Source: Thomasclavelia ramosa DSM 1402 (GTDB lineage Bacteria > Bacillota_I > Bacilli_A > Erysipelotrichales > Coprobacillaceae). Taken from it: a stretch of 64,000 nt of DNA. The stretch lies in the NCBI RefSeq assembly GCF_014131695.1, contig NZ_CP036346.1, forward strand, positions 186,001-250,000, in the 5' to 3' direction. Positions 48,916-54,095 of the stretch are shown piece after piece; position 1 is the stretch's first letter, and each line of letters starts with the position of its first letter. The notes under the pieces were generated by a model, which worked only from the letters and a program-made list of their open reading frames with translations, did not search any database and had not been told where the DNA came from. Position numbers and translations under genes: made by a program.

Positions 48916-48967
48916 AGTTAATCTTAGATATTTATAATTTAATCTAGCGATATTTAATTACTATACT
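48916..48967 (+). promoter_or_regulatory. Promoter block of small RNA 1, conserved with small RNA 2
   Basis: These 52 bp end in the -10 element TATACT (48962-48967) and match 45 of 52 positions of the block at 53678-53729. They contain two similar half-sites, TTAATCTTAGATATTT and TTAATCTAGCGATATTT, about 21 bp apart, with the second overlapping the -35 position. No good -35 is present, which suggests an activator. Confidence 0.65.
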
Positions 48968-48973
48968 AAGGAA

Positions 48974-49175
48974 TGTAGTCAGGATTGTTTAAATAGTTTT
49001 TCAATCCCTTCTCCAAATGACTACTCTTCATGATATTCTTTCCGGATATCAATAAATTTAGATAGAGTCCCACTATCTGTACTCAAAATGAAAAACAGCC
49101 ATTAAACAATCTTTTATAGAAACTTCCTAAAGTAAATAGAGTTTGCTATATAGAAAAGTTAATTGGCTGTTTTTG
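48974..49175 (+). ncRNA. Candidate small RNA 1
   Basis: It has no open frame of note. Stems: GTAGTC/GACTAC (48975-48980, 49019-49024) with inner GGATTG/CAATCC; GATAT/ATATC (49032-49050) with loop TCTTTCCGG; AGATAG/CTATCT (49060-49078) with loop AGTCCCA. Several unpaired C-rich runs are visible (TCCCTTCTCC). It ends at an inverted repeat ACAGCCA/TGGCTGT followed by a T run. The segment ACTCTTCATGATAT (with stem) is shared with small RNA 2. Confidence 0.6.
49091..49174. terminator. Probable bidirectional terminator of small RNA 1 and the trkA operon
   Basis: The 7-bp core ACAGCCA/TGGCTGT, extended imperfectly, spans about 50 nt. It has A-run and T-run flanks on both sides, so it can act on both strands, ending the plus-strand RNA and the convergent trkA operon. 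Confidence 0.55.
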
Positions 49176-53335: not shown

Positions 53336-53429
53336 ACGACAATTCTCCTAATACTCATTCCCTAAAATTAAAAACCAAAAAATATATTTATAACGATACC
53401 CGTTATCCCTCCTCAAGGCCTGTCAAAAT

Positions 53430-53460
53430 AAAAAAGACAGATTCTTTCTTGAATCTGTCT
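53430..53460 (-). terminator. Terminator inside the ATPase operon leader
   Basis: The perfect 10-bp stem AGACAGATTC/GAATCTGTCT has a 6-nt loop and is followed on the minus strand by a T run. It lies about 95 bp before the ATPase start codon, so it must be regulated or leaky. Confidence 0.85.
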
Positions 53461-53615
53461 AAATCGTAATTTACTTAACTATCAAAATAGTTCTTTTAAT
53501 CGTAAGCTTACATCGAATAAATAAAGCATTTTGCTTTATGACAGACTCCACCACTTATTCGATGCCAAAATAATAGCATAGGCAATAATAGGAGTCAACG
53601 AAACTAATCAAACGT
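53461..53615 (-). promoter_or_regulatory. Structured 5' leader of the ATPase operon, candidate riboswitch
   Basis: Reading the minus strand, GACTCC (53596-53591) can pair with GGAGTC (53549-53544). GCATCGAATAA (53565-53555) can pair with TTATTCGATGT (53520-53510). These helices interleave, giving a pseudoknot. Between them lies a perfect hairpin ATAAAGCA/TGCTTTAT (53539-53521), and downstream AACTAT/ATAGTT (53492-53477), then the terminator. A TATGAT -10 lies near 53620. It does not show the conserved cores of M-box or yybP-ykoY RNAs that I know. Confidence 0.5.
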
Positions 53616-53677
53616 AACCAAATCATAACAATTGTATTTTATACTCTTATCCATTAACATATTTATCCATATTTAAT

Positions 53678-53729
53678 AGTTAATTTTAGGTATTTTTGAT
53701 TAAATCTAACGATATTTACTTACTATACT
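53678..53729 (+). promoter_or_regulatory. Promoter block of small RNA 2
   Basis: It ends in TATACT (53724-53729) and matches the block at 48916-48967 in 45 of 52 positions, including the tandem TTAAT...TATTT half-sites. It is divergent from the ATPase leader promoter. Confidence 0.65.
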
Positions 53730-53734
53730 GTTAA

Positions 53735-53873
53735 TTGTAGTAAAGATAACAATTCTTTCTACAATAAATTACTCTTCATGATATCCTTTCCCTGATATCT
53801 AAATAAAAACAGATAGCTTTCCCTCTATCTGTATTACTTGAAACAAGCAGCTTTCCCTCTGCTTGTTTTTTTG
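53735..53873 (+). ncRNA. Candidate small RNA 2 with three identical C-rich hairpin loops
   Basis: About 139 nt with no open frame of note. Stem 1 is ATTGTAG/CTACAAT (53734-53765). Three hairpins follow, each with the loop CTTTCCCT: GATATC/GATATC (53780-53799), ACAGATAG/CTATCTGT (53809-53832), and AACAAGCAG/CTGCTTGTT (53842-53867). The last is a perfect intrinsic terminator with T7. The same 8-nt loop on unrelated stems points to selection on the loop. C-rich UCCC loops are known to pair with ribosome-binding sites in Gram-positive sRNAs such as RsaE/RoxS. Confidence 0.72.
53842..53873 (+). terminator. Terminator of small RNA 2
   Basis: The 9-bp stem AACAAGCAG/CTGCTTGTT has loop CTTTCCCT and a T7 tail. 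Confidence 0.88.
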
Positions 53874-54095
53874 TGATATTAGTATAAAAATGATTACTTT
53901 GTCAAAAATTAGGTTGTAAAATCAACTTGATTATTTTATTACGTTTCTCTACAAAAACATGGTATTTTTCTTAAAAAATTTATGTTTTATCGAAATTTGT
54001 ATGTTAAAATATGTGGAAAAAGGAATATAGTAATAAAAAAATATCGATTTTATCATAGTTTTTTCTTTGCAGCTAGTGCCTTGGAGTTTAGATAT
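53874..54095. other. AT-rich spacer between small RNA 2 and the tatD promoter
   Basis: No open frame, repeat or convincing structure seen. It has only A/T tracts. Confidence 0.5.

Follow-up and report, generated by a model that had tools for sequence, protein, structure and literature searches.

A multicopy family of predicted small RNAs in Coprobacillaceae that keeps C-rich loops on changing stems

LhrC1-5, Rli22 and Rli33-1 of Listeria monocytogenes are multicopy RNAs of about 110 nt with redundant UCCC sites, including one in the terminator loop (PMC4132741, PMC5880928). LhrC itself is known in five copies with three redundant UCCC sites (PMC4132741). The UCCC loops pair with the Shine-Dalgarno (SD) regions of their targets, as demonstrated by compensatory mutation, and LhrC requires a regulator element located upstream of -53 (PMC4132741, PMC5880928). 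In Xanthomonas, sX13 is composed of three stem-loops with apical C-rich loops, and exerts Hfq-independent repression through G-rich motifs near the start (PMC3771888). The UCCC motif is found in 48% of the bona fide sRNAs of Staphylococcus aureus, in up to five copies (PMC5826253). The first-pass annotation of the locus analysed here had called a layout of repeated identical loops unfamiliar, but LhrC (PMC4132741) and sX13 (PMC3771888) are precedents for repeated C-rich target-binding loops.

The window, that is, the whole 64-kb stretch of DNA under analysis, encodes four hairpins on the plus strand in the intergenic region between a P-type ATPase gene (upstream) and a TatD-family nuclease gene (downstream), as listed in Table 1. 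Re-reading of the sequence gave the same position and strand as had been proposed for a three-hairpin RNA, and one identical 8-nt loop was indeed found in the sequence, the fold and the terminator scan on three consecutive hairpins, the last of which is the terminator. The stems had been regarded as unrelated; they do differ, but the closing AG/CT pairs are common to H3 and the terminator, so that the loop identity may partly reflect a recent duplication of hairpins. The minimum-energy fold of 53720-53890, in which H2, H3 and the terminator hairpin were all present, reached -44.9 kcal/mol, compared with -17.7 (sd 3.1) for shuffled sequences, none of which (0/200) was equally good. The 8-nt loop occurred exactly three times in the window when both strands were counted, against 1.85 expected window-wide, and all three were inside 73 bases. 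The RNA probably starts near 53736-53737, judging from the position of the -10 box; a TATAMT-like box immediately 5' of the conserved GTAGT start was present in nearly all relatives.

Table 1. Features of the predicted sRNA locus and of a second copy in the window
Feature	Coordinates	Strand	Evidence and remarks
Second, degenerate sRNA copy	48973..49088	+	Loops TTTCC and AGTCCCA; covariance-model E 1.8e-5
-10 box TATACT	53724..53729	+	Read in sequence
Predicted sRNA, about 136 nt	53737..53872	+	Fold z -8.75; covariance-model match 53735-53840, E 3.4e-7
Hairpin H1 (5' hairpin), TTGTAG...CTACAA	53735..53764	+	Fold; no C-rich loop in the window copy, present in relatives
Hairpin H2, GATATC-CTTTCCCT-GATATC	53780..53799	+	Loop 53786-53793; fold, motif search
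Hairpin H3, ACAGATAG-CTTTCCCT-CTATCTGT	53809..53832	+	Loop 53817-53824; fold, motif search
Intrinsic terminator, GAAACAAGCAG-CTTTCCCT-CTGCTTGTTTT + T-run	53840..53872	+	Hairpin 53840-53869, loop 53851-53858; terminator scan

The location between these two genes would suit a cis-acting leader or attenuator for the downstream TatD-family gene or the upstream P-type ATPase gene. This explanation is very unlikely, as the terminator is complete 260 nt ahead of the TatD gene, the sRNA has its own -10 box, and the remaining copies adjoin unrelated genes. A separate structure was observed in the leader region (53420-53580) of the P-type ATPase gene itself (start 53335, minus strand), where a strong terminator hairpin at 53460-53435 is formed by AGACAGATTC/GAATCTGTCT followed by TTTTTATTTT, and GAGUCUGUC upstream in the leader could pair with the 5' arm of this terminator. 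The leader is a possible attenuator or riboswitch; it had a fold z of -3.3 and gave no credible Rfam match.

A DNA search of 60 genomes detected matches in 15, along with two more copies in the window's own genome, one of which is the degenerate copy of Table 1. The relatives included Longibaculum muris, Massilimicrobiota timonensis and Candidatus Stoquefichus massiliensis, Longibaculum being a member of Coprobacillaceae, Erysipelotrichales. The covariance model, which had been suggested as a check in the first-pass annotation, was built from 14 three-hairpin relatives and matched 29 of the 43 Coprobacillaceae genomes. All nine genomes of the genus had two or more matches each, although a few among the weakest are doubtful, and the window's genome had four copies, the window copy included. 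Outside the family, roughly 200 genomes of the order gave three weak matches (G140, G214 and G216), which on inspection were lone terminators or coding sequence and were rejected; weak matches within the genus or family (L101, L113 and L117) were likewise rejected. By its distribution, the family is largely confined to Coprobacillaceae.

The four copies in the window's genome were flanked by genes for ABC transporter/TrkA-like, P-type ATPase/TatD, transposase/tadA-like and RpiR-like/M19-like dipeptidase proteins, the names being assigned by inspection of the protein sequences rather than by family search. The last of these copies, at 2603710, shares with other genera its position between the RpiR-like regulator and the M19-like dipeptidase; this is therefore probably the ancestral locus, and the window copy a paralogue. 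The degenerate copy in Table 1 is located 4.8 kb upstream of the first, with TATACT at 48963-48968; it has no adjoining U-run terminator, and a long inverted repeat, GAAAAACAGCC...GGCTGTTTTTG, follows in place of the compact terminator. In one relative (L099 388-771, genome G006), two copies stand in tandem about 230 nt apart, which suggests a local duplication. An IS200/IS605-like transposase, identified by reading its protein sequence, adjoins the sRNA copy at 29 kb (L121 8075-8569).

The common form of the family consisted of H1, with the stem GTAGTC...GACTAC and the inner loop UUUUCCCUU, H2, with the stem GATATC and the loop CUUUCCCAAACU, and the terminator with a CUCCCA loop. Several copies in the window's genus have H3, with the loop CUUUCCCU, as an added hairpin that was genus-specific among the members seen, while the rest of the family has the three-hairpin form. 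The H2 stem was GATATC in most relatives and was replaced in L114 and in L110/L111 (TCATGA); the latter, two genomes of another genus, still had CUUCCC in the loop. The exact loop CTTTCCCT was carried by at least four distinct stems. When hairpins of at least 5 pairs were collected from 36 members, CCC was present in the loop of 83 of the 98, compared with 4.8% in composition-matched shuffles. Compensatory changes were abundant in the stems, with 21 of 26 pairs altered on both sides, 95.7% of cells paired (only 34-53% in slid-alignment controls), 0/500 shuffles equally good and covariation at 13/13 pairs of the terminator stem across the family, although such counts are inflated by the fitting of the covariation alignment to the model. 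No reading frame was common to the sRNA relatives. Taken from these alignments, the predicted RNA is a conserved set of three to four hairpins, the last being the terminator, in which stems change with compensation and loops keep UUUCCC/CUCCC.

The selection on the loop that had been proposed from the window copy agreed with this pattern. The opposite behavior, freely changing loops on fixed stems, was looked for in the relatives, and the reverse was found, with loops kept and stems drifting. Could the identical loops nevertheless be traces of recent hairpin duplication, with no selection on the loop? The closing pairs common to H3 and the terminator would fit such an origin, as would the restriction of the extra hairpin to one genus among the members seen, but CCC was kept across genera whose stems had changed at nearly every pair, and the other terminators of the genome lacked CCC loops. 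Among 91 intrinsic terminators sampled in about 404 kb of the window's genome, three had CCC loops, all of them sRNA-family members; as the sRNA loci were among the chosen stretches (about a quarter of the genome), the informative figure is 0/88 for the other terminators. Duplication without selection is hence highly improbable, and this reading is already largely refuted. The family-wide conservation is, on the alignments used here, stronger evidence for loop selection than the loop identity within the window copy.

As the copies lie beside unrelated genes, have a promoter-like box and a terminator, and share no open reading frame, the sRNA is predicted to be trans-acting. We consider it probable that this multicopy RNA uses its UUUCCC loops for pairing with GGGA-type SD sites, and it most likely silences other messages via their ribosome-binding sites, as LhrC does in Listeria. 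Each loop would act as an independent seed for SD sequences of the GGGA(AA) type, pairing would block ribosome entry without Hfq, and the repetition of loops and of gene copies would provide higher dosage or allow one RNA to act on several messages. Conserved UCCC in the unpaired loops of a predicted free-standing sRNA with a terminator, as found here, is one feature of SD-acting sRNAs with C-rich loops. AGGGAAAG is the complement of the loop CUUUCCCU on the transcribed strand. This loop complement differs from the SD consensus of the genome, AAGGAGG, and GGGA was found in 51 of 364 upstream regions, so the loops could pick a subset of genes.

Candidate targets were sought among gene starts. 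The pattern AGGGAAAG-N3-10-ATGA occurred 59 times in the nine genus genomes, compared with 24 for the reversed control; AGGGAAAG at gene starts was not enriched over permuted 8-mers (rank 35/70), and was rejected as a favored SD. GGGA-type SDs were overrepresented among exported-protein genes in a first sample (9/24 vs 44/340, p 0.0035). A second, independent sample from this genome did not reproduce the link (p 0.41), nor did another sRNA-bearing genome, G060 (p 1), and the two genomes with no model match gave much the same picture as these; envelope or exported proteins were thus dropped as a target class. Few candidate targets were conserved between species. A candidate lipoprotein gene (L138/L180) kept AGGGAAAGG in two species at 58% protein identity, and NrdD-like and MetQ-like genes each recurred in two species. 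A polysaccharide deacetylase was discarded as a conserved target, as the site is not kept by its orthologues.

Repeated identical loops on differing stems are also the layout of a protein sponge, and the variation in loop number (three to four) is of a kind that sponges tolerate. CsrB, for instance, titrates CsrA through GGA loops. A sponge of this type on the minus strand had been raised as an alternative, but the strong terminator and the upstream -10 box are on the plus strand, the minus strand that a GGA code would need has no comparable promoter-terminator unit, and the transcribed-strand loops are CUUUCCCU, not the GGA of CsrB/RsmZ-type sponges. Furthermore, the CsrA model, which does match E. 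coli and B. subtilis, found no match in the window's genome or 12 relatives, disfavoring a CsrA sponge, and neither did the Hfq model in the same genomes. An array of CU-rich loops that titrates an RNA-binding protein recognizing UUCCC in the loop is therefore unlikely; to our knowledge, no UUCCC-loop-binding protein has been described. C-rich loops are, moreover, common in Bacillota sRNAs (PMC5826253). The more specific proposal, a decoy for an undescribed CU-loop-binding protein in these bacteria with no CsrA or Hfq model match, its capacity tuned by added hairpins and gene copies, is quite unlikely, though it would represent a new kind of RNA sponge if true.

Returning to the preferred trans-acting sRNA, the upstream regions fell into two types. 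Ancestral-type copies had a conserved element, TTCACATATTTTTTGACAATT, roughly between -62 and -42 relative to the GTAG start, and window-type copies had another conserved stretch, AACGATATTTA, near -27. The conservation in many relatives of an element some 42-62 nt ahead of the start weakly suggests activation by a regulator. Direct repeats of 11 bp upstream were also considered; spacing counts did not favor 11 (12 was the commonest), and no regulator class is claimed.

The sRNA gave nothing credible in Rfam at gathering and permissive thresholds, and no relevant study on sRNAs of Coprobacillaceae was found in the literature searched. This family of gut Coprobacillaceae is thus absent from Rfam 15 and from that literature. 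It offers a clear natural case of loop selection amid stem drift, in which loop-bearing hairpins go from three to four, and makes the question of what the repetition of a seed loop buys testable in bacteria with no Hfq-model match.

When compared with the known systems, the Coprobacillaceae sRNA resembles RsaE/RoxS and other Bacillota UCCC sRNAs, which act by SD pairing, in that UCCC is unpaired, and is set apart from RsaE/RoxS by the RF01820 model, which found no match in the window's genome while the control matched in B. subtilis. Like sX13 and the structurally similar alpha-r7 RNAs, it is built of stem-loops with apical C-rich loops; in contrast, sX13 has CCCC/CCCCC loops, resides at the polA locus, and is unrelated in sequence and phylum. 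With LhrC it shares the multiple copies and the redundancy of UCCC sites, one of them in the loop of the terminator. LhrC, however, has two stem-loops and a single-stranded CU-rich stretch, whereas the Coprobacillaceae sRNA has three to four hairpins, most of them with the motif, and its sites lie in loops. The host of LhrC belongs to a different bacterial class, and LhrC binds Hfq, which the model did not find in the window's genome. LhrC is controlled by LisRK, and many relatives of the present sRNA have a conserved upstream element. With the LhrC model RF00616, neither the interval 53600-54000 (E up to 10) nor the genome yielded a match, which is a weak negative as the reference-genome control was also silent. 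Matching neither the RsaE model nor, with this reservation, the LhrC model, the Coprobacillaceae sRNA represents a new family that most likely works like LhrC and sX13.
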